Positions 19,036 through 41,491 of a stretch of 64,000 nucleotides of DNA are shown here, in pieces (the stretch's first letter is position 1; each line of letters begins with the position of its first letter). A program made the position numbers and the translations under genes. The DNA is from Burkholderiaceae bacterium (lineage in GTDB: Bacteria; Pseudomonadota; Gammaproteobacteria; Burkholderiales; Burkholderiaceae_C). Location: the NCBI GenBank assembly GCA_913776825.1, contig CAJYPV010000008.1:62001-126000 (forward strand), written 5' to 3'. A model generated the notes under the pieces. It was given only the letters and a program-made list of their open reading frames with translations. It searched no databases and was not told the origin of the DNA.

Positions 19036-19261
19036 ACATTCCTCCCGAAGGCGTACTTTTGAACTTTGTTTCTGGTTTTCTGGAAACCGGGCCGAACGTT
19101 AATCCAGCCCTCGCCAAAACGGCCCCCGCGTTCATGGGGTGGCACCACGGAACGCTAACAAGTGGTGACAGGTCTTACCCTGACCGGAAGCCCGGCGCGC
19201 GGCCCCGGACTGCATCCAGGTCGCCTGGACTCGGCGGGCGCGAGCGCCCTCCATCACCGCC

Positions 19262-22756: not shown

Positions 22757-22759
22757 CGC

Positions 22760-23956
22760 TCAGGCCTTCACATCACCGAGCGCGGCCGTTGGCGACGCCC
22801 GCAAGGACTGCGCCAGCGCCACCACCCGTTCCGCATTGCCCAACCAGGTGAGATGCAGCCGCGCGATGCTGGCATGGGCGCCCTCGCCCAGCCGCTGGCG
22901 CAAGGCCTCATCCGAGGCCAGACGCGCCAGCAAGGCTTCGAGCGCGCCCGGCGCGTCCGGATCGAACAGCAGCGCATTGCGGTCGTCGTCCAACACCTCT
23001 TCGATGTTGGGTTGACGCGGCGCGACGATCGCCTTGGCCAGCGCCAGGTATTCGAAGAGCTTGAGCGGCGAGGCATAGGCCACCACCGCCGGTTGCAACG
23101 CGATGTCGAAGGCGGCCACATGGCGCGGCACCTCGTCGCGCGAGATCACGCCGGTGAAGCGCACCCGCTCGCCCAGCGCCAGCTCACGGGCCAGCGCTTC
23201 CAGATCGGCGCGGGCCGGGCCATCGCCCACCAGCAGCAGCCGCGCATTCACCGGCGCGGCGGGGCTCGCCATCCAGCGGATGACCCGGTCCATGCCGTGC
23301 CAGTCGCGCACGAAGCCGGTGAAGCCGAGCACCAGCGCATCGTCCCAGCCCAGCGCGCGCTTGGCATCCGCCGGCCGTGGGGCGGCGGCGAAGTGGGCTT
23401 CGTTGATGCCGTTCGGGATCACGACCAGCCGCTCGGCCGGCACGCCCTGCGCCTGGATCATCCGCGCCAGCACCTGGGTCACCGGCAGCACGGCATCGGC
23501 GCCGCGCCAGACCCGTCGCTCCGCCCAGCGCGCCAGGCGCGGCAGGGCCAGTCCGCCGAAGCGCTCGCGCTCATCGGCCAGCGGCGCGTTGACTTCCAGC
23601 AGCAGCGGCACGCCCAGCCGGCGCTTGAGCATCAGCCCGGCCAGCAGGTAGAGGTTGTAGCGCTCATAGATCACGTCGGGCTGGAAGGCCTTGGCCGCGG
23701 CGGCCAGACGCCGATAGGCATGCAGCGAATAACCCAGCTCCAGCAGTTCGTAGACCCATTTCGGCAGCCGCGCCCGCAGGCGCTGCACCCAGCCGACGTC
23801 ATCGCCCATGCGGGCTTTTTCTTCGGGCGCGGATTCGCCGCCGGGCGCCACGACCATCACCTCATGGCCGAGCGCGCGCAGCGACGCGATCATTTCTTCG
23901 ATGTGAACCGCCTGGCCGTCCTTGGACGCGGTGCGGTGGTGATACAGGATCTTCAT
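22760..23956 (-). CDS. TIGR04063-type PEP-CTERM/XrtA glycosyltransferase
   Basis: This 398-residue GT4 transferase opens with MKILYHHRTASKDGQAVHIEE, the hallmark of the exosortase A-associated group. The donor domain carries GFTGFVRDWHGMDRVI and LKLFEYLALAKAIVAPRQPNIEEVL. The ATG at 23956 is chosen because the conserved opening starts there; upstream in-frame sequence is not protein-like. It is 38 bases from the amidotransferase gene. Confidence 0.9.
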   Translation of the reverse strand: MKILYHHRTASKDGQAVHIEEMIASLRALGHEVMVVAPGGESAPEEKARMGDDVGWVQRLRARLPKWVYELLELGYSLHAYRRLAAAAKAFQPDVIYERYNLYLLAGLMLKRRLGVPLLLEVNAPLADERERFGGLALPRLARWAERRVWRGADAVLPVTQVLARMIQAQGVPAERLVVIPNGINEAHFAAAPRPADAKRALGWDDALVLGFTGFVRDWHGMDRVIRWMASPAAPVNARLLLVGDGPARADLEALARELALGERVRFTGVISRDEVPRHVAAFDIALQPAVVAYASPLKLFEYLALAKAIVAPRQPNIEEVLDDDRNALLFDPDAPGALEALLARLASDEALRQRLGEGAHASIARLHLTWLGNAERVVALAQSLRASPTAALGDVKA

Positions 23957-23994
23957 GCGTGATCGGGTTGAAAGCGCGCTGACGGCCAAGCCGT

Positions 23995-25911: not shown

Positions 25912-25960
25912 GATCGTTCCCGTCCCTTGTTCTCTCGTCGCGCTCGGCGCGCTCGCTGCG

Positions 25961-26069
25961 CTGACCGCTCTCGCTGATCGTTCCCGCTGACCGTTCTGGT
26001 CGACCGCTCTCGCTGATCGTTCTTGCTGATCGCTCTTGCCGATCGTTTTTGCTGCCCTGATCGCTCTTG
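25961..26069. repeat. Tandem 13-bp repeat array
   Basis: Seven contiguous units and one more after a 5-base gap follow CTGAyCGyTCTyG (starts at 25961, 25974, 25987, 26000, 26013, 26026, 26039 and 26057). Units differ by one to four bases. The array fills the gap between the amidotransferase start and the TIGR03088-type glycosyltransferase stop. Confidence 0.85.
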
Positions 26070-26091
26070 CCGCGTGGGTCGCCCCGGCCGC

Positions 26092-27312
26092 TCAGGCGCC
26101 GACGCGCCCCAGCAATCGGTCATACAACCCTTGATACCGCGCCACCATCGCCCGCATGCTGAAGTCACGCTCGACCCGCTGACGGCCGGCCTCGCCCATG
26201 CTGGCGGCCAGCGCCGGCTCGCGGGTCAGCCGCAGCAGCGCGGTGGCCATCGGGCCGGGCTCGCCCGCCGGCACCAGCAGCCCGCTGATCTGCGCGGAGA
26301 CCAGATCCGCATTGCCGCCGACGTCGGTGGCCACCACCGGCAGGCCGCTCGCCATCGCTTCCAGAATCGTGTTGGAAATGCCTTCCGCCATCGACGGCAG
26401 CGCGAACACATGCAGCCCGCGCATCACCGCCGGCACATCGCTGCGCTCGCCGGGCAGCCACACCAGGTCGGTCAGACCCGCCTCATCCAGCAGTGCCTGG
26501 CACTGCGCCCGCAGCGGCCCGTCGCCAATCATCACCAGCCGCGCCTTCGCCTTCAATTCCGGAGCGGCCGACAGCATCGCCACGAAGGCCCGCGCCAGCA
26601 GCAGCTGGTCCTTCACCGGCGCCATGCGCCCCACGGTGCCGATCAACCAATGCCGGTCAGGATCGAACGGGCAGCCTGGAATCGGCTGCGCGCCACGGCC
26701 CGGAACGGCCTTTTCGCCGACCACCTCGCCGGGACGCTGAAACCGCTGCGTGTCCACGCCGTTGACGAACTGGCTGACCCGCGCCGGCGGCACGCGCACC
26801 GGGCCGGTCAGGTACTCGGCCAGATCGCGTGACAGCGCAATGTAGTGCGAGACGAACGGCTTGTAGAAACGACGCACCCGTTGATAGGCACGATTGCGCC
26901 CATCCAGATCGCCGACGTCGCGGCCATGCTCGCCATGCACCCGCACCGGCACGCGTGCCAGCCAGGCCGGCAACTGCACTTCGAGCGCAGCGAGGTTGCG
27001 GCTGTGCACGATGGCGGGCCGCAGCGTCCGGAACAGGCGGTAGAGCGCGGGAAACTGCCAGAAGCCCTGCCCGGGCGGCTTGTGCAGCGCATGGAAGCTC
27101 ACATCGTCGCGCTGCAGGCGGTGCCGGAAATCGGTCACCTCGGTGAGCGCCACGATCGCATGGCGATAGCGATCCGCCGGCATGTGGTTGATCAGATTGA
27201 CCACGCCGTTTTCCAGGCCGCCGGTGTCGAAGCGATACATCACATGCAGCACCAGCGGACGCGGATCCGCGCCATGCATCGCCGCGTCCCGGGCGCGCAG
27301 ATCGGCGCTCAT
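26092..27312 (-). CDS. TIGR03088-type PEP-CTERM/XrtA glycosyltransferase
   Basis: This 406-residue GT4 transferase has [40 protein letters not shown] and [10 protein letters not shown] in the acceptor half and [19 protein letters not shown] with [23 protein letters not shown] in the donor half. These are the signatures of the exosortase A-linked group (sugar transferase, PEP-CTERM/EpsH1 associated). Its start overlaps the xrtA stop by four bases. Confidence 0.92.
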
Positions 27313-28979
27313 GGCGTCGCTCCCGAGGCGCCACCGTCGTTGCCCGATGCCGCCGCGCTCGCGGCCGACGGCTCGCTCGCAGCGGGCTGGCTCTCGACGC
27401 GCGGCGATCCTGCTCGCACCGCGCGCAGGTCCTCATCGATCATCCGCCAGTGCTGCTGCAGGAAGGCCTGCAGTCGCTGTGGCGCGGCGTCGTCCTGCGC
27501 GGTGTAGACCAGGATCAGCGCCGCATCGTCACCCTGCCCGCGCAGGCGCTGCCAGGCGCCGAGCAGGCGGGCGCGCCAGTCGCTGGTCTCGATCCGCCCA
27601 TCCAGCCAGTAGCCATGCCAGACCAGCATGCGAGGCGCCTGCGTGCCATCCAGCGAGGTCGCCCGCGTCTGCGTGCTGCGCCAGTGCACCGCGCCCGGCG
27701 GCAGCAGCACCGTGGCGGCGCCGCGTGAGACCACCGCCCATTGCTTGTCGTCGGCCGCCACCACCGCATTGCTGGAGCTGACCAGCTTGCGCTCATAGTC
27801 CTGATCGCGGAAATACTGCAGATGCAGGCCAACAGCCGGCGCACCCCCTTGATGGAATTGCTGATGCAGCCGCGCATTGGCGCCTTCGAAATCCGGCGAC
27901 CAGGCGGGCTCGGGCAAGGCGCCCGCCTCCCAGCCCGGCGCGGCGGCGATCTCCGGCAGCTCGGGGACCGGCTGGCCACCCGCGTGACGCAGCCACAGGC
28001 CCAGCACCTGCGGCAGCAGGATCACGACCGTGAGCGCCAGCACCGTCAGCGGCAATTGCAGCGGACCACCGAACGGCGACGCGCGCCCGGCGCCTTGCGC
28101 ATCGGACGCAGGCGGCACCAGCACCGGATCCGGCTGCGACCAGCGCGCGCCGACCATGAACATCGCCAGCATCACCAGGCCAAAGAACACCCAGCCGTAG
28201 ATCAGGTGATCGACGCCCACCGCCAGCGTGTTGCCGGACAGATGCCCGATCAGCACGATCAAATAGGCCCGCGCCCAGTTGGCCACCAAGGGCAGCGCCA
28301 GGGCGAAGGCGATGAAGGCCAGACGGCGCCGCAGCGAGTGATAGCTGAGGTAGGCGTAGAGCGTGCCCACCATCAGCGAGGCGATCAGATAGCGCACGCC
28401 GGAACAGGCCTCGACGACCGACCACTGGCCGCTCGGAATGATGAACTGCAGCCCTTCCTGATAAACCGGGATGCCGCTCAGCCGCAGGGCCAGCACGGTG
28501 AAATGGGCGGTCCAGTCCATCAACTGCGGCAGCAGGAATTCGCCGATGGGCACGCAGAAGAACAGGAAGGCCAAGGGGAAGGCCATCTCCCGCGTGATGC
28601 GGGCGCCCAGCACCGCCGGCACCAGCAGCATCAGCATTGCGACCAGGCTCAGCTGGGTCAGCGCATTCACCGCCGCGAAGTCGGCGAACAGCCAGACCAG
28701 TCCCAGCACGGCGATGGGCACGGCCATCCAGGGCAGCGGCTGCGGCGTGAGCGGCGCCACCAGCACGCGTCGGCGCCAGGCCAGCCAGAGCGCGATCGGC
28801 GGCACCAGGAAGGCATGGGTGAAGGTGCCGGAGCGCCACCAGATGGTGACCATGCCCACCGCGGTCTGGCGATAGAACAGCAGCACCGCGAGCACCAGCA
28901 GGCCCAGCACCAGCAAGGGCCGGCGCCAGGCCAGCGGCAGGCCTTTGGAGCCCAGCAGCGGCGACAAGGCCACGCTCAC
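27309..28979 (-). CDS. xrtA: Exosortase A fused to an EpsI domain
   Basis: This inner-membrane cysteine transpeptidase-like protease processes PEP-CTERM tails. About eight helices fill residues 20-280. The catalytic residues are visible: Cys192 in [11 protein letters not shown], Arg237 in [13 protein letters not shown] and His258 in [11 protein letters not shown] linker and one helix (about 305-330) lead to a periplasmic EpsI domain (about 335-515: [42 protein letters not shown]). In some organisms EpsI is a separate protein. The gene overlaps both neighbours by four bases, so it is embedded in a coupled run of glycosyltransferase genes. Confidence 0.95.
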
Positions 28980-30250
28980 GCTCCCAGCCCCTGGAGCACC
29001 GGCGTGCCGGCGGTCGATGGCGCCGGCGGGCTCACCGAGGCCGGCGGCAGGCAGGCATCCAGTTGGGACAGATGGGCTTGCCAGCTGAACTGGCGCAGCA
29101 CCCGTTCACGGGCCTGCTGACCGATCGCCTGGGCACGGGCCGGCGCGCACAGCAGCGCATGCACCAGATCGACATAGTCGGTCGCGTCATCGGCGGACAG
29201 CAGATCCTGGCCCGGCACCACGCCGTTCGCATCGAGCGCTTCCACGCAACTGCGGGCCGCGACCACCGGACGGCCCACGGCCATCGCCTCCAGGATCTTG
29301 TTCTGCACGCCGCGCGCCAGGCGCAGCGGCGCGACCACCGCGACCGCATGCTGCAGGTAGGGCCGCACATCCGGCACGGTGCCGGTGACGCGCACCGCCT
29401 CCCCCGCCAGGGCCAGCACCGCGGGTGTCGGCGCTCGGCCGACGATGCTGAAGCGCAGCTTGGGCCAGCGACGGCGCAGCTCCGGCAGCACCTGAGCCAC
29501 GAACCACTGCACCGCATCCACATTGGGCCAATAGTCCATCGCGCCGGTGAACACCAGCGGCAGCTCATCGGCATCGAAGGGGCTGGGCTGGAGCGGCAGC
29601 GGCGCGAAATAGCCGCTGTCCACGCCGTTGCACAGCGCCTCGACCCGCGCCGTGGTGCCGGACAGGCGCTGGAACAGCGCCTTTTCGCTGTCGGTCACGA
29701 AGAAGGAACAGCGCGCCTGGTCGGCGACCCGGCGCTCATAGTCGAGCAAGGCCTGACCCTCGCGCCGGTACAGCCAGGACATCGGCCAGCGGCGCGACTT
29801 GGCATAGTCGCTCCACTTGGCGGAATCGACATCGACGAAGTCCACCAGCATCGGCACCGGCCCGGCCAGTTCGCGCAGTTGCAGCGCGTACTGGGCCATG
29901 GTGGACGAGAACACCACGATCGCATCGAAGCGCTGCTCGCGGGCGATGCGCGCGATCCATGCCTGCATGGCGCGGTGCCGGTAATACGGCAGGCTCAGCG
30001 CTTCGCCGCTGACCAGGCCGCGCAGGCTGGCGATCCGCGACCGCAGCGGATTCAGCCCCGCCACGAAGCTGTCGGCACACAGCGCGCGGACGGCGGGCAG
30101 ATGGGCCCAGTCTTCCGGATCGTCGATGAAGCTGCCCAGCACCACCTCGTGGCTGGCCACCAGATGCTTGAGCAGATGGTAGGAGCGCAGCTTGTCGCCC
30201 TTGTTGGGCGGATAAGGCAGGCGGTGAACCAGATAGAGGATGCGGGCCAT
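28976..30250 (-). CDS. TIGR03087-type PEP-CTERM/XrtA glycosyltransferase
   Basis: This 424-residue GT4 transferase opens with [29 protein letters not shown], characteristic of the exosortase-linked TIGR03087 group. Further family blocks are [33 protein letters not shown] and [21 protein letters not shown]. The stop overlaps the xrtA start by four bases. Confidence 0.93.
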
Positions 30251-30318
30251 GGAGGTCTTTGGACGGGGCGTCGGCGAACGTCAGCGGGCGTGGGCGACCG
30301 GGAGGGCGGGCACGCCGC

Positions 30319-31497
30319 TCAGCCCAGGCTGCGCACGATGTGCGGCCCGAGCCAATTGGCCACGCCGATCGGCAGCTTGCGCCAGGCCTTGATCATCAGC
30401 TGGTACTTGGCATTGCTGGGATTGTTTTGCGGCACGGCGTCGCGCTGGTAGAGGCAGTACTCGTAATGCAGCGGCGTGGGCTCGAAACCCCAGTTCTTCT
30501 TGAAGGCGTAGGAGCCGGTGTCCTGCTTGCTGCGGCCATAGTCGAAGACCTTCAGGCCACGGGCACAGGCCCGGCGCATCAGCTCCCAATACTTGAAATC
30601 ATTGGCCGCGAGATCACGCGCCACCACCGCATCGCCGGCGTAGTACGGCAGCACTTCATCGCGGAAATAGAAGCTCAGCACACCGGACAAGGGCGTGCCC
30701 TGCGCATCGGTGACGATCAGCACTTCGGCGGCATCGCCGAAGGTGTCCAGCAAGGCCTGGAAATAGCGCTTGGCCATGGCCGGCGTGCCGTGGCGGTGAA
30801 CGTTGTCCGCATAGAGCGCGAAGAAGCGGTCGACGGTTGTGTCGACCTCCGCCTTCAAACCGAATTTGATGCCCTTGCGCACCATGGCGCGCTGCTTGCG
30901 CGGGATCGCCAGCAGATTGGCTTCTTCCTCCGGCAGGATCTCCTTGCGGAAGGTCACATACAGATCCTGATGCGGCCAGTCCTCATGCCGGCGCTGCACA
31001 TTGCGCAGTTCCAGATGCTGCACCCGCAGCGCTTGGGCCTGCGCCTGCGCGGCGGCTTCCAGGGCCTGGGCGGCCGCCTCGGTCTCGGCGGCCACACCAC
31101 CGTAGACGGCGAACGGCAGGCTCACCAGCGCATGGCCGAACAGGCGGCTCTTGTTCTCGGCCAGCGGCAACACGCCCTCGATGCGGCCGTTGCGCTCGGC
31201 ATAGAGGAAGAAGCCGCGATGACCGAACTGCTCCTTCATCAGGCGCTGCCAGGCCGACAGGTGGAAGAAGGTGGCCGACGGGCATTGCTGCACGAAGGCA
31301 TCCCAGCGGCGTGCGGTCTCGGCATCGTCCAGCGCCAGTTGGCGGACTTGCAGTGGCTGATCGGCCGACGAGCCGATCGGCGATGCGATCGCGCCGGCCA
31401 TCGGCGCGGTCTCCGCCGGCAAGGTCGACGACGACGCGTCCGCCACTCGCTCGGCGGACAGGCCCGTCGACACGGCGCTCCATTGCGCGCTGCTCAT
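30319..31497 (-). CDS. FemAB-related GNAT protein of the XrtA system
   Basis: This 392-residue protein has the two-lobed FemAB/GNAT fold typical of exosortase-associated members (TIGR03019 type). Visible blocks are LSAWQRLMKEQFGH, IPRKQRAMVRKGIKFGLKAEVD and GRSKQDTGSYAFKKNWGFEPTPLHYEY. FemAB enzymes transfer amino acids from aminoacyl-tRNA; here the acceptor may be a polysaccharide amino group, which is inference. The first 60 residues are low in similarity and rich in Ala and Ser. The start overlaps the deacetylase stop by four bases. Confidence 0.9.
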   Translation of the reverse strand: MSSAQWSAVSTGLSAERVADASSSTLPAETAPMAGAIASPIGSSADQPLQVRQLALDDAETARRWDAFVQQCPSATFFHLSAWQRLMKEQFGHRGFFLYAERNGRIEGVLPLAENKSRLFGHALVSLPFAVYGGVAAETEAAAQALEAAAQAQAQALRVQHLELRNVQRRHEDWPHQDLYVTFRKEILPEEEANLLAIPRKQRAMVRKGIKFGLKAEVDTTVDRFFALYADNVHRHGTPAMAKRYFQALLDTFGDAAEVLIVTDAQGTPLSGVLSFYFRDEVLPYYAGDAVVARDLAANDFKYWELMRRACARGLKVFDYGRSKQDTGSYAFKKNWGFEPTPLHYEYCLYQRDAVPQNNPSNAKYQLMIKAWRKLPIGVANWLGPHIVRSLG

Positions 31498-32444
31498 GCG
31501 GCCCTCGACGGCGGCAGGTGGGCAGCGTTGGCCATCACCGTGGACGATGCCGGCAGGAACAGCTCATCCATCCGTCCCCAGGCGAAGTCGGACAGCAGTT
31601 GAGCGATGCGGGCCTCGGTGCGGCCGATGTTCACGTAATGGCGGAAGCGGGTCTTGGCATCGATGCCGGGGATGCGCGGCTGCTGGGTGTCGATTTCCCA
31701 GGGATGGAAATAGAACACCGCGCTGCGGCCTTCCTGGCGGTTGAAGCGTTCGATCATCCAGCGGGTCATGCCGTACGGCAGCAAGCGGAACCAGCCGCCC
31801 CCGCTGCTCGGATAGTTCTTGCCCCGAAAGCGCAGCGTGGTCACTGGCACTTCGATCAGGCCGGGCCGGACTTCATACGGGAAGCGCGGCGAATCGGGCA
31901 TGCCGTAATGGTCATGCTGGATCGGATAGACGCTGGAGCTGTAGCGATAGCCGCAGTCCGCCAGCACATCGAACGCCCACAGGTTGCCTTCGCCGATCGA
32001 GAAACTCGGCGCGCGATAGCCCTTGACCTCGACACCGCCCAGATCCTCCAGCAGATGCTTGGCGCTGAGGATGTCCTCGCGGAAGGCGTCGGGCGTCAGG
32101 TCGCTGGCGCGCTCATGGCCATAGCCGTGGCTGGCCAGTTCATGGCCGCGGGCGACGATCGTCTTCACGAGTTGCGGATACCGCTGCGCGATCCAGCCCA
32201 GGGTGAAGAAGGTGGCCTTCACCCCGCCGGCGTCCAGCAGGTCCAGGATGCGCGACATGTTGTGCTCGACCCGGCATTCACGCGACGGCCAGTCCGCTCG
32301 GTCGATGTAGGGCGCGAAGGCGGAGACCTGGAAGTAGTCCTCCACATCGATGCTCATCGCATTGCGGATGCGGCCGGCAGCGGACGTGCTGAGGGGATGG
32401 GCGGTCGTCGACGCGCCGACGGGAGGTGGGGCGAGTGGTGTCAT
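31494..32444 (-). CDS. XrtA-system polysaccharide deacetylase
   Basis: This 316-residue NodB-type deacetylase carries the metal-binding MSIDVEDYFQVSAF, the H-x3-H motif SHGYGHERASDLT and YRAPSFSIGEGNLWAFDVLADCGYRYSSS. These match the TIGR03006-type deacetylases of exosortase loci and the family includes PgaB/IcaB relatives. The start at 32444 gives a 30-residue tail before the conserved domain; an ATG at the conserved MSIDVEDY is also possible. Confidence 0.93.
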   Translation of the reverse strand: MTPLAPPPVGASTTAHPLSTSAAGRIRNAMSIDVEDYFQVSAFAPYIDRADWPSRECRVEHNMSRILDLLDAGGVKATFFTLGWIAQRYPQLVKTIVARGHELASHGYGHERASDLTPDAFREDILSAKHLLEDLGGVEVKGYRAPSFSIGEGNLWAFDVLADCGYRYSSSVYPIQHDHYGMPDSPRFPYEVRPGLIEVPVTTLRFRGKNYPSSGGGWFRLLPYGMTRWMIERFNRQEGRSAVFYFHPWEIDTQQPRIPGIDAKTRFRHYVNIGRTEARIAQLLSDFAWGRMDELFLPASSTVMANAAHLPPSRAA

Positions 32445-32475
32445 GTCGTGGCCTTCCAGTGCAGGCGGGCGCCCC

Positions 32476-33606
32476 TCAGGACCGCACCGCTCCCACGAGT
32501 TTTTGCAGCAGCGCGAGGGTCTGCTGGTTGATGCGCTCCAGGCGCAGCAGGCTGTCTTCGATGCGTTGCAGCCGGGCATCCTGCCCGTCCAGGCCCAGGC
32601 CGGCCAATTCATCGGAGAGCGCGCTCACATCGAGTCCGGCCGCGCCCATCTGACGACGCAGCAGGCCGACATCCAGGTCCACGCCGAGTTCAGCCTCACC
32701 GCCGCGCGTCGCGCGCGTGCCGCCCGTCGCCGTGCCCATCGCCATCGCGGCCGCGCCGGCCTCGACCGGTGCGCTCACGGGTGGCGGCGCGAATGCGGAT
32801 TCGCGCGAGAGATCGGCGACCACTTCCTCCACATCGGCGACGGTCAGATGGGTGCGTTCGGCCATGTAGCCGAGCAGCAGCAGCCGGTCGCACAAGGTGT
32901 TGATGCGACGGGGAATGCCCTGGCTGGCGGTGTGCAGCACGGTGAAGGCCTGATCGTCGAAGGTCGGCTTGCCATCGGCACCGGCGCAGCGCAGGCGGTG
33001 CTCGACATAGCGACGCGTGTCCTCTTCATCCAGCGGGCCGATGTGGCAGCTGGCGGCGATGCGCTGGCGGAACTGCTCCATCTCCGGACGCTGCAGGATG
33101 GCGCGGAACTCCGGCTGACCGACCAGGAAGGTCTGCAGCAGCGACTGGTTGCCGAACTGGAAGTTGGACAGCATGCGCAGCTCCTCGACCGCGCGGGCGG
33201 TGAGGTTCTGGGCCTCATCGACGATCAGCAGGCAGCGCTTGCCGCGGCTGGCCTCGCTGACGAAGAAGGCCTCCAGCGCCATCAGCAGCTCGCTCTTGGG
33301 CAGATCCTTGACCCGCACGCCGAAGGCCGCGCCGACCAGCCGCAAGGTGTCTTCCGCATCCAGCTGGGTGGTGACCACATTGCCGATGACGACGTTGCTG
33401 CGGTTCAGGCTGTCCAGCAGGCCGCGCACCAACGTGGTCTTGCCCGCGCCGATCTCGCCGGTGATGACGATGAAGCCGTCGCTGCGCAGCACGCCGTAAT
33501 CCAGGTAGGCCTTCGCGCGGCGATGCTGCTTGCTGCCGAAATAGAAACTGGGATCGGGGCTGAGCTGGAACGGCTTGCTGCTCAGCCCGAAGAAGGCCTC
33601 ATACAT
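32476..33606 (-). CDS. XrtA-associated AAA ATPase (ExeA-like)
   Basis: This 376-residue protein begins MYEAFFGLSSKPFQLSPDPSFYF, the hallmark of the general secretion ATPase ExeA-like family seen in exosortase loci. Walker A is GEIGAGKTT (50-58) and Walker B is LLIVDEAQ (126-133). The last hundred residues are Ala-rich with a short coiled segment. Its role in polysaccharide secretion is not established. Spacing to the neighbouring outer-membrane gene is 12 bases. Confidence 0.92.
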   Translation of the reverse strand: MYEAFFGLSSKPFQLSPDPSFYFGSKQHRRAKAYLDYGVLRSDGFIVITGEIGAGKTTLVRGLLDSLNRSNVVIGNVVTTQLDAEDTLRLVGAAFGVRVKDLPKSELLMALEAFFVSEASRGKRCLLIVDEAQNLTARAVEELRMLSNFQFGNQSLLQTFLVGQPEFRAILQRPEMEQFRQRIAASCHIGPLDEEDTRRYVEHRLRCAGADGKPTFDDQAFTVLHTASQGIPRRINTLCDRLLLLGYMAERTHLTVADVEEVVADLSRESAFAPPPVSAPVEAGAAAMAMGTATGGTRATRGGEAELGVDLDVGLLRRQMGAAGLDVSALSDELAGLGLDGQDARLQRIEDSLLRLERINQQTLALLQKLVGAVRS

Positions 33607-33618
33607 GAAGTTGACTGC

Positions 33619-35178
33619 TCAAAAGCGCTGCGAGAGCTGCGCATACACCGCGTTCTCGCGGTAGGCGAGGAATTGATCCTCGGACCGGGTCTGGCGCAGG
33701 CCGACGGTGGCATCGGTCCGCGGCCCCAACCGGATCGTGGTGGTGGCAAACAGCGATCGCAGGCCGCTGCCGGCGCTCACGCCATCGCCCGAGCTGTGCT
33801 GGCGGGTATAGCTCAAGGTGCCGTTGGCCAGCGGGGTGAAGCGGTAGGACACGCTCAGCGTCGCGCCGCGCTGGCGCACGTTGTCGGTCAGGGCCAGGTC
33901 GCCGCCGCTGCCGGTCGGCGCCACGCCCAGACGGCGGCTGTTGTTGTCGTTGGCGGAGAGCGTCACCGTCAGCCGCGGACCGGTCCAGGCCAGCGACAGC
34001 TCGGTGCGTCGCTGCAGCATCGCGGTGTTGGCGACGAAGCCATTGCTGGTGATCGCATCCGGGCTCAGGCCCAGCGCGGCCAGCGTGGCGCGCACCAGCG
34101 TCGCCCTGCGGATCGGATCGGGCTCGATGCTGGTGAACTGCAGGTCCAGCAGCTGGTAGTTGTTCATCTGCCCGCTGGGCGAGCCGCCGCTGCTCACGCT
34201 TTCCGAGCTGGTCACGCGCAGCACGAACTGGGTCATGCGGTGCTCGGCCAGCAGGTTGTGGCTGTCGCCGTAGCTGTGGTGCTGCCAGTCGCCGCTGAAG
34301 GTGGTGCGCGGCGACGGCGTCCATTTCAGGCTGGCGCCGTAGATGGTGCTGGTGTCCTTGCCGAGGAAGTCGCTGCGCTCGCGGCCGGCATTCACGCCGG
34401 CGGCCCAGTCGATGTCCGGCACCAGGGTCAGGGAGGCAATGGCGCTGGAGCTGCGGTTGTCCAGGCCGGTCTGGTCGTAATGGATGCGTCGGGTGTTGGC
34501 CTGCAGGCCCCAATTCAGCAGACGGCCTTGCGGTCCGGCCAGGCTGAGATTGAGCGAGCCTTCCTTGCTGTCTCCCGCATTCGCGCCGGCATTGCCGCTC
34601 TCGGTGGAGCTGCGGATCTGGCCATTGGCGCGCAGCTCGAAGGTGGCTGCGCCGGCCAGCGCTCCGCGCCAATACGGGGTGACGGAAACCGTGCGCACCT
34701 CGGTGCGATTCGGGCTGTCGAGCTGGTTGCTCGGCGACTGCTGACCGAAGGCCGAAATGCTTTGCTGGCTGATGTTGCCCTGCACATCGACGAACAGCGC
34801 GCGCGGCACCAGCTCGGCATTGCCGCGCAGGTTGAGCTGGTTCTGCAGCCGGTTCTTCTGATCGCTCTTCAGGTAGATCAGCCCATCCAGGGTGTAGTCC
34901 AGCACGCCGCGCACCATGCCGGTCTGGCTGGTGACGGTCACGCCGGGCGAGACGGTGGTGATCAGGGCGCGATCGCGCTGACCGTCCGGGGCCAGGGTGA
35001 GGTTGTCGGTCCAGGTTTCGGACAGACCGATCCGCGGAGTGACGGTCAGGCCCTGGCGGCGGGTGGCATCGCCCTCCTCCGCCGACGACTGGGCATGCGT
35101 GCCCAGGCTCGCGACCAGAAGCAGGCAGGCCGCGACCAGGCCACGGCGGGAGGGCAAGCGGGCAGCGACGCGCGGCAT
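33619..35178 (-). CDS. TIGR03016-type PEP-CTERM-associated outer-membrane protein
   Basis: This 519-residue exported protein has a signal peptide (GLVAACLLLVASLGTHA-Q) and a long run of amphipathic beta strands ending in Phe (LSQRF), typical of an outer-membrane barrel. The pattern TPRIGLSETWTDNLTLAPDGQRD and repeated GATLSVSYRFTPLANGTLSY-like strands fit the exosortase system barrel. It probably forms or supports the export channel. The start at 35178, four bases after the tyrosine-kinase stop, gives a normal leader. Confidence 0.9.
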   Translation of the reverse strand: MPRVAARLPSRRGLVAACLLLVASLGTHAQSSAEEGDATRRQGLTVTPRIGLSETWTDNLTLAPDGQRDRALITTVSPGVTVTSQTGMVRGVLDYTLDGLIYLKSDQKNRLQNQLNLRGNAELVPRALFVDVQGNISQQSISAFGQQSPSNQLDSPNRTEVRTVSVTPYWRGALAGAATFELRANGQIRSSTESGNAGANAGDSKEGSLNLSLAGPQGRLLNWGLQANTRRIHYDQTGLDNRSSSAIASLTLVPDIDWAAGVNAGRERSDFLGKDTSTIYGASLKWTPSPRTTFSGDWQHHSYGDSHNLLAEHRMTQFVLRVTSSESVSSGGSPSGQMNNYQLLDLQFTSIEPDPIRRATLVRATLAALGLSPDAITSNGFVANTAMLQRRTELSLAWTGPRLTVTLSANDNNSRRLGVAPTGSGGDLALTDNVRQRGATLSVSYRFTPLANGTLSYTRQHSSGDGVSAGSGLRSLFATTTIRLGPRTDATVGLRQTRSEDQFLAYRENAVYAQLSQRF

Positions 35179-35182
35179 CGCC

Positions 35183-36241
35183 TCAGGCCTTGTCGGACGC
35201 ACCGGGCGCCCCCGCCGGGCTGCGGCCATCGCCGTAGCCATAGCCGTAACCGTAACCGTAACCCTGCTCATAGCCGTAGCCATAACCGGCGCTGCGCTTG
35301 CTGCTGGCTTGGTTGAGCAGCAGCATCTTGAGGGGGCAGTTCTCGATCGCGGACACCGCCTGCTCCACCGCGCTTTGCGGGGTGCGCTCGGCCTGCACCA
35401 CCACCACGATCTGGCCCATGTGGGAGGCCAGCACGCGGGATTCGGTGGTGAGCAGCAGCGGCGGCGAATCGAAAATGATGATCCGGTCGGGATAGCGCTT
35501 GGCCATGTGGTCCAGCAGCGCGCTCATCGCATCGCTGGCCAGCAGCTCGGTGGCGCGCGCATGCGGGCGGCCGCTGGGCAGCAGGGTCAGCTTGTCGACA
35601 TTGGTCTTGAGCAGGACGCTGGACATGTCCGCTTCCTTCTCCAGCACATCCAGCAGGCCCGGGCCGGGCGGCAGGCCCAGCATGCGCAGCATCGAGGGCC
35701 GCGCCACATCGGCATCCACCAGCATCACGGTGTTGTCGAACTCGGCGGCAATGCTCATCGCCAGGTTCAGCGAGGTGAAGCTCTTGCCCTCGCCGGGCAA
35801 GGCGCTGGTCACCATGATCAGGTTGGCATGGTTGAGGGTCGAGGCCCCCTTGCCCATCGCGTTCTTGATCAGTGGTCGCTTGATGTTGCGGTATTGGTCC
35901 GCCATCAGGCTGCGCGGCGCATTCGGCGTGAGGAATCCCTGCGCGGTCAACGCTTCCAGGTCCAGCTCCACACGCTTGGAGCCGACATCCGTGCTGCGCT
36001 GGATCATCGGCGCCTGGGGCACGGCGGGGGCAGCGGGCACGGGTGTCAGCGTGGGTGCGACGGTGGCCGTTGGCACCGGGTCGGCGATCACGGCGGCGGC
36101 GGGCTGAGCCGGTGCGCTGACGTGCGTCGGAGCGGTGGCGGGCACGCTGGTCGCAGCCGGCAGCGTCGGCGCGCCGACGTCCACGCCGGCCCGCTTCAGT
36201 TGTTCCAGCCGCTCGGCGGCTTGTTCGATCAGGCTTGTCAT
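35183..36241 (-). CDS. XrtA-associated tyrosine autokinase (BY-kinase)
   Basis: This 352-residue cytoplasmic BY-kinase controls polymer length together with the next protein. An Ala/Pro-rich N-terminal region (20-80) precedes the kinase core with Walker A SALPGEGKS (146-154) and Walker A' VMLVDADVARPS (172-183). The C-terminal tyrosine cluster is strikingly regular: GYGYGYEQ and then several Gly-Tyr dipeptides up to GDGR, encoded by a repetitive run of TAc/TAt-GGc codons near 35230-35290. Autophosphorylation of these tyrosines is the known regulatory switch in the family. The chain-length gene stops 4 bases upstream of this start. Confidence 0.94.
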   Translation of the reverse strand: MTSLIEQAAERLEQLKRAGVDVGAPTLPAATSVPATAPTHVSAPAQPAAAVIADPVPTATVAPTLTPVPAAPAVPQAPMIQRSTDVGSKRVELDLEALTAQGFLTPNAPRSLMADQYRNIKRPLIKNAMGKGASTLNHANLIMVTSALPGEGKSFTSLNLAMSIAAEFDNTVMLVDADVARPSMLRMLGLPPGPGLLDVLEKEADMSSVLLKTNVDKLTLLPSGRPHARATELLASDAMSALLDHMAKRYPDRIIIFDSPPLLLTTESRVLASHMGQIVVVVQAERTPQSAVEQAVSAIENCPLKMLLLNQASSKRSAGYGYGYEQGYGYGYGYGYGDGRSPAGAPGASDKA

Positions 36242-36245
36242 TCGA

Positions 36246-37838
36246 TCACCCCACCTGCCGGCTCAGCCAGATCGCCATGCCGATCAATCCCAGCGCATAC
36301 AGGCTGACCAGGCTGCCAGACGCCACGCCGAAGCGCAGCAGATCGGCCTTGGCCCGGCGCCGGTCTTCCGGCGTTTCCTGGCGGGAGACCGCGCCCAGGA
36401 TCGGCAGCGCCAGACGCTGGCGCATTTCATTCAGGTCATGGAACACCGGACGCAACTGGCTGGCCGCGAAGGCCGCCACCAGACCGGCCAGCAGCGCCAC
36501 CACCAGGCCCGCGGCCAGCAGCATCAGCCGGTTGGGCGCGACCGGCTTGGTCGAGGCCCGCGGCGGATCGATGATGCGGAAGTCCGCCACGCCGGAGGTG
36601 TTGTCCAGGTCGGTCGACAGCGAGGCGGATTCACGCCGGGCGACCATTTCCTCGTAGTTCTTCTTGATGACTTCGTAATCGCGGTTGAGCTGGGCGAATT
36701 CGGCTTCCAGCTGCGGCGCCATCTTGATGGCCGCCTGCGCCTGCGCATAGCGGCCCTGCAGTTCATCGACCCGGGCGCGCAGCGACGCGACTTCCACTTC
36801 CTTGGTCGCCAGCACCCGCGCGAGTTCCTGGTTGGCCAGGCTGTCGCCACGGCCACCGCTGGTGACCGGGTTGTTCAGCGCGGCCTTCTGCAGATCGGCC
36901 ACTTCGCGGCGGCGCTGGTCTTCCAGCTCCTTGATGAGGCGCTTGGTGTTCACCACATCCGGATGCTGGTCGGTGTAGCGCTGCTGCAGTTGGTCGAGGT
37001 TGCGCTTCAGGCCGTCGATGCGGCTGTCGATTTCCGGCGTGGCCAGCTTCTGCGAGCTCTCCTGCATCAGGCTTTGCAGGCTGCTGCCGGTGCTGTTGCG
37101 CTTGAGGTCCAGTTCCAGCTGCTGCTTGGCGGCATCGCGCGCATTCACCGCTTCCCGCAGCGCCAGGCGTGCGGTCTCCAGTTGCGCATTGGCGTCGGCC
37201 AGGCGCGAGGCGGAATCCTTGCCGTCCGACGCGGTCAGCTGCAGGTTGCGCAGGCGGAATTCCTTGCGACGGGTCTCGGCCTCTTCGAGCTTGGTCTCGT
37301 AGTTCTTGATCTGCTCATTCAGGAAGGTCGCGGCGGTGGTGCTGTCCTTGCGGGTCGCACCGAGGCTGGACTCCATGAAGATCGACAGCAGCGAGGCCAC
37401 CACCTTCTTCGAGACCTCGGGCGAGGTGTCGCGGTAGGCCAGGATGTAGAGGTTGTTGGTGCTGCCGCCCGCGGTCTGGATGGACAGGTTGCGGGTCACG
37501 CGCTCGATCAGCGCTTCCTGCTCCGACTTGGAGGTGGCGCGCAGGTCCAGGTCGGCCATGCGGACCAGCTTCTCCACATTCGGCCGGCTGATCAGCGTGC
37601 GGCTGAGCATGTTGACCTGCTGCTCGGTGTTGGAGAGCACCGCCACGCCGGACATCAGCGGCTTGAGGATGGATTGGGTGTCCACATAGACCCGGGCGCT
37701 GGCCTCGTAGCGGTCCGGCACGACGAACACCACGACGGCCGCCACCAGGGCGACGATCCAGGACGTGATCAGGCCGGGCCAGCGGTAGCGCCACATCCGC
37801 TTGAAGACGGCCATCAGTTGCGCGATCAGGGAATCCAT
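36246..37838 (-). CDS. XrtA-system polysaccharide chain-length determinant (Wzz/PCP)
   Basis: This 530-residue inner-membrane polysaccharide co-polymerase has two terminal membrane helices (about 25-45 and 500-520) and a long periplasmic coiled coil between them (about 170-400). The segment PVAPNRLMLLAAGLVVALLAGLVAA forms the proline-rich C-terminal helix. It acts with the adjacent autokinase to set polymer length. ATG 37838 (MDSLIAQL) is chosen over TTG 37856 because family members begin at that point. Confidence 0.93.
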   Translation of the reverse strand: MDSLIAQLMAVFKRMWRYRWPGLITSWIVALVAAVVVFVVPDRYEASARVYVDTQSILKPLMSGVAVLSNTEQQVNMLSRTLISRPNVEKLVRMADLDLRATSKSEQEALIERVTRNLSIQTAGGSTNNLYILAYRDTSPEVSKKVVASLLSIFMESSLGATRKDSTTAATFLNEQIKNYETKLEEAETRRKEFRLRNLQLTASDGKDSASRLADANAQLETARLALREAVNARDAAKQQLELDLKRNSTGSSLQSLMQESSQKLATPEIDSRIDGLKRNLDQLQQRYTDQHPDVVNTKRLIKELEDQRRREVADLQKAALNNPVTSGGRGDSLANQELARVLATKEVEVASLRARVDELQGRYAQAQAAIKMAPQLEAEFAQLNRDYEVIKKNYEEMVARRESASLSTDLDNTSGVADFRIIDPPRASTKPVAPNRLMLLAAGLVVALLAGLVAAFAASQLRPVFHDLNEMRQRLALPILGAVSRQETPEDRRRAKADLLRFGVASGSLVSLYALGLIGMAIWLSRQVG

Positions 37839-37952
37839 GCGGCGGTCTCTCTTCAACCGTTCGGGTTCAGCCGGTGCGTGGACCGGCGGGGCGCGGCCGC
37901 CTGCACGGGGCCGGCCGATCGACGCCGGCGCGGGGACCCGGCGTCAGGCTCA

Positions 37953-38660
37953 TCAGAAGAAGCTCTGCGGAATGATCAGGATGTCGCCGGGACGCATCTC
38001 GACGTTGGCAGACACATCACCGCGACGGATCAGGTCCTTCAGCCGCACCGAGTACTGCTTGTTGCCTTCGGCGGTGCGCAGGATGGTGGCGGCATTGCCA
38101 TCGGCGAAATCGGTCAGACCGCCGACGGCGATCATCACGTCCAGCAGCGACATCTTCTGCTTGTAGGGCAGGAACTGCGGCTTGGCGGCTTCGCCCACCA
38201 CGCGGATCTGCTCGCTGTACGGGCCGACGAAGCTGGTGACGATCACGGTCACCACCGGGTCGCGCACATATTTGCCGAGCGTCTTCTCGATGTCGCGGGC
38301 GATCTCGACCGAGTTCTTGCCCTGCACCGGCAGCTCATCGATCAGCGGCGCGGCGATCTTGCCGTCCGGACGCACCGGCACGGTGGTGGACAGCTCGGGG
38401 TTGCGCCAGACGATGATGTTCAGGTTGTCGCCAGCGCCGACCACATAGCTGTAGTCCGCCTGACCCGCCGCGACCGGCGCCGGCGGGAACTTGCCGGTGG
38501 AGCAGCCGCCCAGCGCCAGGCTGGCGCCCAGGGCCGCGACCATCAGTCCGGCGCGGGCCCGACAGCCTCGTCCAGCGACCGGCCACAGGCCTTGCGCCAT
38601 CGCCGCCACTGCGGCCACACCATGCTGAACAGCGTGACGAATCGATCCGATCTTCTTCAT
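37953..38660 (-). CDS. XrtA/PEP-CTERM exopolysaccharide export lipoprotein (Wza-like)
   Basis: This 235-residue lipoprotein has a lipobox ALGGC after a long leader and a Poly_export domain (YVVGAGDNLNIIVWRNPELSTTVPVRPDGKIAAPLIDELPV) followed by one SLBB domain (IRVVGEAAKPQFLPYKQKMSLLDVMIAVGG). It should form the outer-membrane export ring. The start at 38660 has GGGGTGG directly upstream; a GTG two codons earlier is weaker. It is the first gene of the minus-strand series, so the main promoter should lie in 38661-38930. Confidence 0.93.
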   Translation of the reverse strand: MKKIGSIRHAVQHGVAAVAAMAQGLWPVAGRGCRARAGLMVAALGASLALGGCSTGKFPPAPVAAGQADYSYVVGAGDNLNIIVWRNPELSTTVPVRPDGKIAAPLIDELPVQGKNSVEIARDIEKTLGKYVRDPVVTVIVTSFVGPYSEQIRVVGEAAKPQFLPYKQKMSLLDVMIAVGGLTDFADGNAATILRTAEGNKQYSVRLKDLIRRGDVSANVEMRPGDILIIPQSFF

Positions 38661-38842
38661 GTCCACCCCTCAGGAAGCTAGCCGGATTGCACCTCAGCGC
38701 CGCCGGGTATGGAACCCCCTGGACTGAGGGCAACCCATGCCGGGCGCGCCGCGTTTCCGTGCTAGCGGTGCGCCCTCGCCGCTCAACGTTTTGAGCGACC
38801 TTTTACAGATCGCCAGACCTGTATCCAGCCGTGGCTCGTCCG

Positions 38843-38928: not shown

Positions 38929-39846
38929 TTATCGCCCGCGCAGCACGGGTTTGATCAAACTCACCAGCAGGCGCTGCAAGGGATGGGCATTGCCGCCCGG
39001 ACGCCAGGTTTGCTTGAGTATTCCGCGATAGGCATCGAAATGCAGCCCCCAGGGCGCGGCTCGCAGCGGACCGCGCTGAAGCAGCAGTTTCAGCACATTC
39101 GTGCCCATCACGCCGGCGCAGAGCTCGCAGGCCATGCCGGTGGACGGGCCGCGGCGCTCCTTGAAGTTCACCGCCTCCGGCACCATCAGGTAGCGGCGGT
39201 TGAGCATGGACGGCGACAGCCCGGCGATGAACCGGGCGTATTGGTCCTCGGTCGGCCGGCCGTCCACCTTGAAATACTCCTCGAAGCTCATGCCGGTGGG
39301 GCTGAAATACAGGAAGGCGGTGCCCATGCCCAGCGGGGCGGCGGTCATGGCCGGAATCCCCAGTTCGCGACAGCGCTTGAAGACTTTGCGGCGGGTTTCC
39401 AGCACGAAGAAATCCAGGCTGTCGACATACACATCGACATCCTTCAGAAACTCGTCGAGGTTGTCGTCATTCACGCCTTCGCGGAATAAGCGCAACTGGG
39501 TTTCGGGATTGATGTCGCGCGCCATTTCCGCCACCACATCGATTTTCGGCCGACCCATGGTGGACATGAACGCGGCCACCTGGCGATTCATGTTGTGGAC
39601 ATCGAACTCATCAAAATCCGCCAGATGGAAATTGGCGATGCCCAGACGCGACAGCGCCAGCACATGCGCGCCCCCCACCCCGCCCAGTCCCGCCACCGCC
39701 ACGCGCGCGCGACGCAGTCGCTGCTGCTCGTCCCGGGTGACCCAGCCGATGTTGCGGGAAAACGCGCGGTCGTAGTCGAAGGTGAAGCCGGTGGGCGCGC
39801 CCGCTGCGGGGCCGCTCGCCTCGCCGGAACGGCTGACGGTGCTCAT
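38929..39846 (-). CDS. ThiF/MoeB/HesA-family adenylyltransferase
   Basis: This 305-residue E1-like enzyme has the ATP-binding AVAGLGGVGGAHVLALSRLGI and the Arg/Asp segment LADFDEFDVHNMNRQ. No CxxC zinc pairs of the usual MoeB type are obvious; a single CELC (near residue 250) is present. The substrate is unknown: no ThiS, MoaD or other ubiquitin-like partner gene is adjacent. It lies between the polysaccharide export gene and the second PEP-CTERM gene, but nothing shows it belongs to that system. Confidence 0.85.
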   Translation of the reverse strand: MSTVSRSGEASGPAAGAPTGFTFDYDRAFSRNIGWVTRDEQQRLRRARVAVAGLGGVGGAHVLALSRLGIANFHLADFDEFDVHNMNRQVAAFMSTMGRPKIDVVAEMARDINPETQLRLFREGVNDDNLDEFLKDVDVYVDSLDFFVLETRRKVFKRCRELGIPAMTAAPLGMGTAFLYFSPTGMSFEEYFKVDGRPTEDQYARFIAGLSPSMLNRRYLMVPEAVNFKERRGPSTGMACELCAGVMGTNVLKLLLQRGPLRAAPWGLHFDAYRGILKQTWRPGGNAHPLQRLLVSLIKPVLRGR

Positions 39847-40006
39847 GACGTCTCCCTGGCCGCTCGGGCGGCCTTTGATGAATGACCCAGTATGCCGCGC
39901 GGACCGGCGCCCACAGCCCGGACTTGCCCCGTGCGTGCGGTCCCGCGACGGCCCGAAGGATCGGCTGAAGCCTGCCTGGAATCCCCCTTGAACACGGGGA
40001 TCGGCC

Positions 40007-40025
40007 TTGTCGAGAAACTTGACAA
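40007..40025 (+). promoter_or_regulatory. Candidate enhancer-binding (UAS) inverted repeat
   Basis: The perfect dyad TTGTC-GAGAAACTT-GACAA lies about 98 bases before the predicted transcription start of the PEP-CTERM gene. A second, looser GACAAATT...AAATGTC dyad follows at 40033-40056. Sigma-54 activators bind at this distance. In XrtA systems the activator is usually PrsR, so this could be its site; that link is inferred. Confidence 0.4.
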
Positions 40026-40087
40026 CGGACCCGACAAATTCACGTGTGCAAATGTCAAGTCGTTGATTTCAAAGGCGGAAGAGCGGC

Positions 40088-40103
40088 TGGCACGCTTGTC
40101 GCT
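40088..40103 (+). promoter_or_regulatory. Sigma-54 (-24/-12) promoter of the PEP-CTERM gene
   Basis: TGGCACG-CTTG-TCGCT matches the RpoN consensus TGGCACG-N4-TTGCW at every position but one, with the required GG and GC dinucleotides and exact spacing. Transcription would start near 40114, leaving a 60-base leader before the ATG at 40177. Confidence 0.75.
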
Positions 40104-40176
40104 TTGAAGATGGGGCAGAAGCCGGGCACGCCCGCTTCGGTCGCGCATCTGGCAAGACGGATTTAAGGAGCAACAC

Positions 40177-41130
40177 ATGTTCAAGCAAGCAAAGCTCGCA
40201 CTGGCCGCGATGGCCATGGTGGCTGGCCTGCCGGCGATGGCAGCCCCGCTGTACATCGACACCGGCCACGATTTCAATCTCGACCCCAACGGCTCGACTC
40301 GCACCGCCAACTTCAGCCAGATGGGCTACAGCGGCACGCTGGCGACGTCCATCTATCTGGGCGACCCGACCAAGGCGGGCACGACGGTGATCGACACCAA
40401 CATCCCGTCGATCATGACCTATTACGGGTTCACGGCCGGCACCCACACCACCCTGTCGGGCGGCACCGAGAACTTCAGCTTCCCGAATGCCCCGTCGCAG
40501 AACAACATCGACGCGCTGAACAACCCGTCGGCGCCTGATCTGAACGGCTTCACCGGCGGCGTGGCCTTCCCGCAGTACGGCGCCGGCAACATCGGCGGCG
40601 TGGGCGGTGCCTGGGGTCTGACCTACAGCTACCAGATCGTCGGCACCACCGTCGATGCCAACGGCGACGGCGTCTCCGACTACGTGGACTACACCACCGG
40701 CATCTTCAGCGTGTACTACATGAGCGCGCTGACCGATCCGAACAACGGCAAGGAAGTGCTGCGCCTGATCGTCGACGATTCCGACATCGCGTTGGCCAAC
40801 CTGAGCGTGAAGGGTCACCTGGACTACACCTACGCCGCTGGCGACAGCTTCGTCCAGAACTTCTTCAACTCCGGCGAAGGCAAGGGCACGCTCTACAGCA
40901 ACTGGGTGTCGACCCCGATCTCGGTGAGCTGGATGCTGGACACCAACGTGGATCCCCCGATCCCGACCGCTGACCAACTGTGGAACACCGGCCAGTCCCT
41001 GATCCGTCAATCCACGCTGGACGGTTCGCTGGTGATCAATGTGCCGGAACCGGGCAGCCTGGCGCTGGTCGGCCTGGCCCTGGCCGGCCTGGGTGTGGCG
41101 CAACGCCGCCGCGCCAACAAGCAAGCCTGA
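40177..41130 (+). CDS. PEP-CTERM sorting-domain protein
   Basis: This 317-residue exported protein has a signal peptide (MFKQAKLALAAMAMVAG, cut near AMA-A) and a C-terminal PEP-CTERM tail: VINVPEPGSLALVGLALAGLG followed by QRRRANKQA. The body is rich in Gly, Asn, Thr and acidic residues with a calcium-binding-like DANGDGVSDYVD segment. It is probably an XrtA substrate displayed on or released with the exopolysaccharide. AAGGAG sits 7 bases before the ATG. A sigma-54 promoter precedes it and a strong terminator follows, so it is a single-gene unit. Confidence 0.94.
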   Translation: MFKQAKLALAAMAMVAGLPAMAAPLYIDTGHDFNLDPNGSTRTANFSQMGYSGTLATSIYLGDPTKAGTTVIDTNIPSIMTYYGFTAGTHTTLSGGTENFSFPNAPSQNNIDALNNPSAPDLNGFTGGVAFPQYGAGNIGGVGGAWGLTYSYQIVGTTVDANGDGVSDYVDYTTGIFSVYYMSALTDPNNGKEVLRLIVDDSDIALANLSVKGHLDYTYAAGDSFVQNFFNSGEGKGTLYSNWVSTPISVSWMLDTNVDPPIPTADQLWNTGQSLIRQSTLDGSLVINVPEPGSLALVGLALAGLGVAQRRRANKQA

Positions 41131-41172
41131 TGGCAGATCGAGGCGCCTCGCGGTGCCTCGATGATCAGACAC

Positions 41173-41200
41173 GAAAGCCGCTCTTCGGAGCGGCTTTCTT
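41173..41200 (+). terminator. Rho-independent terminator of the PEP-CTERM gene
   Basis: A perfect 11-bp stem GAAAGCCGCTC/GAGCGGCTTTC closed by a stable TTCG tetraloop is followed by TTC. It lies 43 bases after the stop codon. Confidence 0.85.
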
Positions 41201-41491
41201 CATGGTGCGCCGCGCATGGCCGTCAGACTCTCTGCCACGGGCCAAGTCGCCTCACCGTGCGATGGCGACGCCAATGTCCCGCCGGCAGGCGCGGCCCGTG
41301 AACAAATTTGCGAGTCATCAAGCGCCCCTCGCCAGACGCTTGGCATTCCCGCGCAATCCCGCATACTCGGCCGATTCAAGCCGCTGGCGCCCCGCACGCC
41401 CCGGTCGTCGTGAGACGACACGCTCCCCGCCGCCGCACCGGCTTGAGAGAAGCAGTTCTTCATTGGATGGACGCCCCAGGAGGCCAGGACC
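41201..41491. other. Intergenic leader of the chemoreceptor gene
   Basis: No gene or clear promoter is visible. CAGGAGG near 41479 is the ribosome-binding site of the following gene. Confidence 0.4.

Follow-up and report, generated by a model that had tools for sequence, protein, structure and literature searches.

The control of PEP-CTERM genes by RpoN together with PrsK and PrsR has been described in several bacteria. The element that Haft et al. (2006; PMC1569441) reported before 99 of 167 proteobacterial PEP-CTERM genes consists of a 17-nt motif 1, a spacer of 62.8 ± 10.6 nt (range 32–92) and a 17-nt sigma-54 motif 2, with 71 ± 38.5 nt from motif 2 to the start codon, and PrsK, PrsR and PrsT were named in the same work. 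In Aquincola the transcription start of pepA was mapped, with TGGCAC at −24 and CTGCTT at −12, and RpoN1 is needed (Xia et al., 2023; PMC9850573). The flocs of an Aquincola prsK insertion mutant were not restored by a plasmid with prsK or prsK-prsR, a failure for which the authors could give no reason (PMC9850573) and which is counted against the PrsR/sigma-54 reading favored below. Zoogloea prsK and prsR mutants lose their flocs, and overexpression of PepA bypasses the loss (as reported in PMC9012009). Such control was taken as known in the initial annotation of the present locus, in agreement with Haft et al. (PMC1569441) and with the mutants in Aquincola and Zoogloea.

As the mechanism is known in outline from this earlier work, the site described here is a further example of a known element. 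It lies in the window, by which is meant the whole stretch of 64,000 nucleotides that was analysed, and its surroundings are as follows.

20227–38666, minus strand: XrtA exopolysaccharide/sorting cluster, from family profile matches
27309–28979, minus strand: exosortase A, 343 bits (cut-off 208)
38929–39846, minus strand: ThiF/E1-like protein, divergent, PRK08223 family, 441 bits (cut-off 266)
39983–39999, no strand: CCCC-N9-GGGG dyad, separate from the PrsR box, of a kind enriched upstream of PEP-CTERM genes
40008–40024, plus strand: PrsR box TGTCGAGAAACTTGACA, candidate site for PrsR, an NtrC-type activator, centre at about −98, in 13 of 13 orthologs and scored by a matrix from which it was held out
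40056–40068, minus strand: IHF-consensus site AATCAACGACTTG in the spacer, with 13 of 13 orthologs matching WATCARNNNNTTR
40088–40103, plus strand: sigma-54 promoter TGGCACG-N4-TCGCT (−24/−12), from the sequence read, the orthologs and the matrix
40114, plus strand: predicted transcription start, placed from the −24/−12 spacing only
40177–41130, plus strand: PepA-like PEP-CTERM surface protein of 317 aa, best family floc_PepA (NF033554)

The initial annotation had proposed a sigma-54 promoter of GG-N10-GC geometry and, about 98 bases 5′ of the predicted start, a perfect TTGTC-N9-GACAA dyad, both before a PEP-CTERM gene, and each of these points held. Read directly, 40088–40103 is TGGCACGCTTGTCGCT, with GG at 40089–40090, ten bases, and GC at 40101–40102, a geometry kept in 13 of 13 orthologs, while TTGTCGAGAAACTTGACAA forms the perfect dyad at 40007–40025, centred on 40016 and 98 nt 5′ of 40114. 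Both are contained in the 330-nt region 5′ of the 40177 gene, and 73 nt (40104–40176) lie between the sigma-54 site and the start codon. The −12 part reads TCGC and not TTGC, which also counts against the PrsR/sigma-54 reading. The protein has a hydrophobic N-terminus, a C-terminal VPEPGSLALVGLALAGLGVAQRRR and, at its end, a PEP-CTERM domain (TIGR02595, 22.2 bits, cut-off 16). Its score with floc_PepA, 45.6 bits with the best stretch at residues 138–312, falls short of the curated cut-off of 80, and so it is termed PepA-like only.

The likeness to the element of Haft et al. (PMC1569441) extends to the sigma-54 GG-N10-GC motif, the PEP-CTERM gene, the presence of PrsK, PrsR and PrsT in the genome, and the spacing, the window having a spacer of 63 nt (in 13 of 13 orthologs) and 73 nt to the start. 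Motif 1 in its published wording ends TTTACA, whereas the 17-nt box of the window ends TTGACA, again a point against the PrsR/sigma-54 reading, and fits a matrix of 25 promoters introduced below. With pepA of Aquincola tertiaricarbonis RN12 (PMC9850573) the locus shares a PEP-CTERM gene with TGGCAC at −24, and for that gene the authors report a predicted enhancer upstream along with the RpoN1 dependence; the two differ at −12, CTGCTT there and TCGCT here, and the window product is a weak PepA match. The PrsK-PrsR-PepA system of Zoogloea resiniphila (PMC9012009) is alike in having PEP-CTERM genes with prsK-prsR and RpoN control.

A search of 149 genomes gave a match to the protein in 13 (its own included), every one of them belonging to the window's genus, which is represented by 16 genomes and is Roseateles/Mitsuaria as judged from named records of relatives; the named records with the protein are Roseateles, Mitsuaria and one metagenome bin called Rubrivivax (8 loci). 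In the alignment all 13 orthologs read TGTCGANNAACTTGACA, then exactly 63 nt, then TGGCAC, with variation in the bases between and around. Because the outer T and A of the 19-mer vary among the orthologs, the conserved box is the 17-mer 40008–40024. Thus the candidate binding sequence of the initial annotation survives as a conserved dyad, though at 19 nt it was drawn too long: what is kept is TGTC-N9-GACA, and even this is degenerate between genes.

For other occurrences the 16 genus genomes were searched with TGTC-N10-ACA, 55–75 nt and YGGCNC-N7-GC, which matched at 126 places, the reversed pattern doing so at 47; the TGTC, ACA and GGC.C positions, being fixed by the search pattern, are no independent evidence. 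The 126 comprise the window gene and its orthologs (13), 36 that were read (30 picked and six others in the own genome) and 77 remaining, the core being GC-rich in most of these last and not in a few. The 30 were hand-picked by eye, chiefly for the box, with coordinates and hence spacing visible during picking, and stand 5′ of 24 genes with a PEP-CTERM end, one with a PAP variant and five for an S8-type protease. A matrix was built from the 25 PEP-CTERM or PEP-CTERM-like promoters, none of them among the 13 orthologs; it rests on few unrelated genes, as roughly 15 of the 25 loci resemble XDP1 on visual inspection, and two more (L097 and L104) involve PEP-CTERM genes whose homology to the window gene is distant or only possible.

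With this matrix 40008–40024 is the top box among the 17-mers of the window (22.3 bits, runner-up 10.7) and 40088–40103 the top sigma-54 site (16.2 bits, runner-up 13.9). When only the ten box positions free of the search pattern are counted, the site obtains 7.9 out of a maximum of 17.6, a score that 40 of 127,966 window 17-mers (site included) reach, and so it is a good match there and not a unique one. The pair with its spacing is significant, 40008–40103 having a joint score of 38.5 bits, where the second-best pair of the window reaches 7.3 and the highest score in 20 block-shuffled windows is 19.8. The sigma-54 string by itself was rejected as evidence, since its frequency is at or below chance: TGGCAC-N7-GC occurs three times in the window with 7.4 expected, and a longer consensus with up to three mismatches 263 times with 307 expected, the site at 40088–40103 having one mismatch. 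The exact 19-mer dyad is found at one place in the window, where 0.02 are expected from shuffles, and at two places in the 5.74-Mb genome against four for the reversed-pattern control, palindromes being scored on both strands in the genome-wide count. That a GC-rich intergenic region merely happens to carry a sigma-54-like string and a dyad would accord with the low count of the string, but the box, spacing and promoter are kept in 13 of 13 orthologs despite changed bases around them and the joint score far exceeds the shuffles, which makes coincidence exceedingly improbable.

Neither PrsK nor PrsR is in the window, and the initial annotation had predicted such a regulator elsewhere in the genome. 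PrsR is encoded on another contig at C22:245621–246955 (706 bits, cut-off 502.6), with PrsK directly 5′ (758 bits, cut-off 300), PrsT directly after (628 bits, cut-off 312) and an EpsB_2 sugar transferase in front of the adjacent prsK-prsR-prsT; the genome also has two RpoN genes. As nine other proteins of the bacterium score above 150 bits with the PrsR model, all under its cut-off, the box is assigned to PrsR by co-occurrence. Those nine give some room for a sigma-54-dependent promoter whose activator is another NtrC-type regulator of the genome and not PrsR, as does a similar box 5′ of S8-type protease genes in five of the 30 promoters, together with the lack of a PEP-CTERM end on the two S8-type proteins examined in full (L248 and L249). 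Set against this, 25 of the 30 hand-picked genus sites precede PEP-CTERM or PEP-CTERM-like genes and the published profile ties the site to PrsR across genomes (PMC1569441), so that a different activator is quite improbable and PrsR is the preferred one.

In the genus, the S8-type protease genes with a PrsR-like box and sigma-54 site 5′ are at L095, L099, L112, L115 and L118, in five genomes, the S8 assignment having been made by eye from motifs. Given these promoters, the regulon may extend beyond PEP-CTERM genes.

The own genome has 19 PEP-CTERM domains in a PF07589 search, a count that is perhaps incomplete, as the Pfam model in its 2006 form recognized, according to Haft et al., only 22% of their PEP-CTERM set (PMC1569441). 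With hand-chosen starts, the joint element stands at two of the 19 genes: the PepA-like window gene (38.5) and, at C13:40512, a member of the XDP1 family with a family score over cut-off (joint score 55.5, the site itself being part of the matrix training set). The next best joint score among the 19 upstream regions is 6.4, and at C17:153849 there is a box-like 17-mer, CGTCGGATTTCTTGACA, of 11.5 bits without a promoter at the right distance. The six other pattern matches of the own genome outside the window have no credible PEP-CTERM gene 3′, one filter-flagged short frame being judged spurious. The initial annotation had suggested the dyad as a genome-wide search, and had held that absence of the dyad and the −24/−12 elements from every other PEP-CTERM gene would speak against it; the XDP1 gene has both, as a joint box and promoter. 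The exact TTGTC-N9-GACAA was rejected as a probe, the box being degenerate between genes: outside the window it matches only once, at C26:297980, and this match belongs to none of the 19 genes.

Sixty PEP-CTERM upstream regions from three relatives were also scored, and 11 exceeded 24, several of the sites having been in the training set and one of the 11 (L150) lacking the GC of the −12 element. The 60 genes are drawn from G013 (17 of 17 matches), G007 (14 of 14) and G014 (29 of 35), with script-chosen starts of which a few look wrong. Absence of the element from most of the PEP-CTERM genes found suggests that the family is not one regulon.

The spacer between box and promoter holds a further conserved feature. 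WATCARNNNNTTR, the IHF consensus, has two matches in the 64-kb window, and its core, YAAGTNNTTG at 40056–40065 (plus strand), ends 22 nt 5′ of TGG. The core has this same 22-nt distance in 12 of 13 orthologs and in 15 of the 30 other promoters (it is at 23 nt in one and absent from 14), and it is contained in 0.09% of random 63-mers from the window. The full consensus is present in just three of the 30, and on the opposite strand, which counts against a general role. Core plus promoter is found at 89 places in 150 family genomes against 38 for the reversed pattern, 64 genomes having a match, and nine of the 28 loci readable among the 30 matches listed read AAGTNNTTGAT. Four of these nine (L224, L239, L240 and L245) are 5′ of a PEP-CTERM gene and have a PrsR-like box (12.7–22.6 bits) in the preceding 120 nt, and the other five have neither (best 2.0 bits); a further PEP-CTERM gene, at L227, has the core and box without TTGAT. 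The PrsR element is thus present in further genera of the family as well, and the core, which also occurs independently of the PrsR box, fits IHF better than PrsR. The terms IHF and integration host are absent from Haft et al. (PMC1569441), and three papers contain both PEP-CTERM and integration host factor.

Two other settings of the core were seen. In three other genera of the family (L230, L233 and L242), TGGCACAGGGTTTGC with core AAGTNNTTGAT stands 12 nt 5′ of a 496-aa frame, and a PrsR-like box was not found at these promoters. In the own genome (G000), C32:250257–250301 on the minus strand reads AAGTTGTTGATT then TGGCACAAGGCTTGC, a sigma-54-like promoter that has an IHF-like core and lies immediately beyond the NtrC-like regulator gene C32:250448–251758.

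Among the 30 promoters, picked with their spacing in view, the distance from box to promoter is 61–64 nt in 24 or 73–74 nt in six with none between, and five of the six long-spaced promoters keep the core 22–23 nt from the promoter. The difference of ten to eleven bases corresponds to roughly one helical turn, the shift expected of an activator that stays on the same face of the DNA. Two points call for caution: five of the six long-spaced promoters are XDP1-like and could share a single origin, and the 60 genes of the relatives add a site with a 65-nt spacing (L203) as well as one of 71 nt at the doubtful L150.

Close to the box is the second dyad, CCCC-N9-GGGG. The window has only two of these, at 39983–39999 and 19123–19139, one before each of its PEP-CTERM genes, which start at 40177 (plus) and 19035 (minus). 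The dyad lies within 250 nt 5′ of seven of the 19 own PEP-CTERM genes (reversed pattern 0 of 19), against backgrounds of 0.6% of random own-genome 250-mers and 2.9% of shuffled own upstream regions, and before 16 of 60 in the three relatives (shuffled 2.6%, reversed pattern 2 of 60), these comparisons being with random 250-mers, shuffled regions and the reversed pattern. Genome-wide it has 68 places and the reversed pattern 54, so it is no generally frequent motif. At a 280-nt limit 24 of the 79 PEP-CTERM genes of the four genomes have it, counts that are not independent because some of the genes are orthologs of each other, and the 24 dyads have little common inner sequence.

As to what may read it, a regulator of the EpsA LuxR type was considered and rejected, none being over the EpsA cut-off (best 115.5 against 170 bits), and it is a lead only. 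A TGAA core inside the dyad was likewise dropped, having five distinct places in the genome (3 + 3 rows, reversed control 0 + 1), three before PEP-CTERM genes and two elsewhere. At C9:115358–115375 of the own genome CCCCTTGAATGAACGGGG lies about 215 nt 5′ of an ORF starting MRRFSVNPPERRSAAWQTW.

If the 40177 gene were also under a second control via 39983–39999, PrsR would be only one of two inputs. The excess of the dyad before PEP-CTERM genes speaks for such an arrangement; on reading the alignment, the nearest ortholog (L049) retains a dyad with at least four C and at least four G and in the remaining orthologs the run is weaker or not evident, and it could serve the divergent gene instead, so that a second input to this gene is on balance unlikely. 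A wider proposal, put forward tentatively and as a whole, is that the genus has two or more control classes of PEP-CTERM genes, a small PrsR/sigma-54 class (two of 19 here) and a larger one marked by CCCC-N9-GGGG, with a regulator reading that dyad and the 40177 gene in both classes, and that the box of the PrsR class takes two positions one turn apart while the IHF-like core is fixed to the promoter; the two halves may both be right, with somewhat more doubt than confidence attaching to their conjunction.

The ThiF/E1-like gene (PRK08223), divergent in the window, is a neighbor of the PepA-like gene at every one of the 13 orthologous loci. At L097 and L104, in genomes without an ortholog, a ThiF-like gene (53% identity) adjoins a PEP-CTERM gene with a similar promoter and is 3′ of it and convergent with it; the L097 PEP-CTERM protein is 24% identical to the PepA-like protein. 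In the XrtA cluster, exosortase A, an O-ligase, an amidotransferase, two XrtA-type glycosyltransferases, FemAB, a deacetylase, an ATPase, an outer-membrane protein, a tyrosine kinase and chain-length and export proteins are all over their cut-offs; two further glycosyltransferase frames score under theirs and frame 19262–20443 has no family match. Exosortase A and 19 PEP-CTERM domains (PF07589) in one genome mark it as having XrtA/PEP-CTERM sorting. A conserved RNA leader was considered for the PepA-like gene and rejected: the alignment fold gave small helices with almost no covariation (one of 15 pairs changed on both sides), folding of the single strand does not surpass that of shuffled sequences (z −0.67), and an Rfam search of 39850–41250 returned nothing at E 0.1.

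The 40177 gene is thus very probably controlled by PrsR and sigma-54 through the published type of PEP-CTERM element, in the following way. PrsK would sense a signal and phosphorylate PrsR, which would then bind the 17-bp dyad at 40008–40024. Bending of the spacer, probably by IHF at 40056–40068, would let PrsR reach RNA polymerase-sigma-54 at 40088–40103, where its ATP hydrolysis would open the promoter for transcription to start near 40114. The PepA-like product, exported and sorted by the XrtA encoded in the window, may help to hold exopolysaccharide on the cells. What the initial annotation observed is confirmed and its interpretation is supported, so that a guess becomes a supported assignment. 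Added here to the earlier work are the IHF-like site in the spacer, the two spacing classes about one helical turn apart and the CCCC-N9-GGGG dyad.

For one bacterium a guess from sequence has become a concrete regulon, made up of a regulator and two target genes with a 17-bp box and rules for the spacing, and the CCCC-N9-GGGG dyad provides a handle on part of the PEP-CTERM genes without the PrsR element. As the PrsK stimulus was called obscure by Haft et al. (PMC1569441), its identification would be made easier by a clean reporter promoter from a genus that can be cultured.
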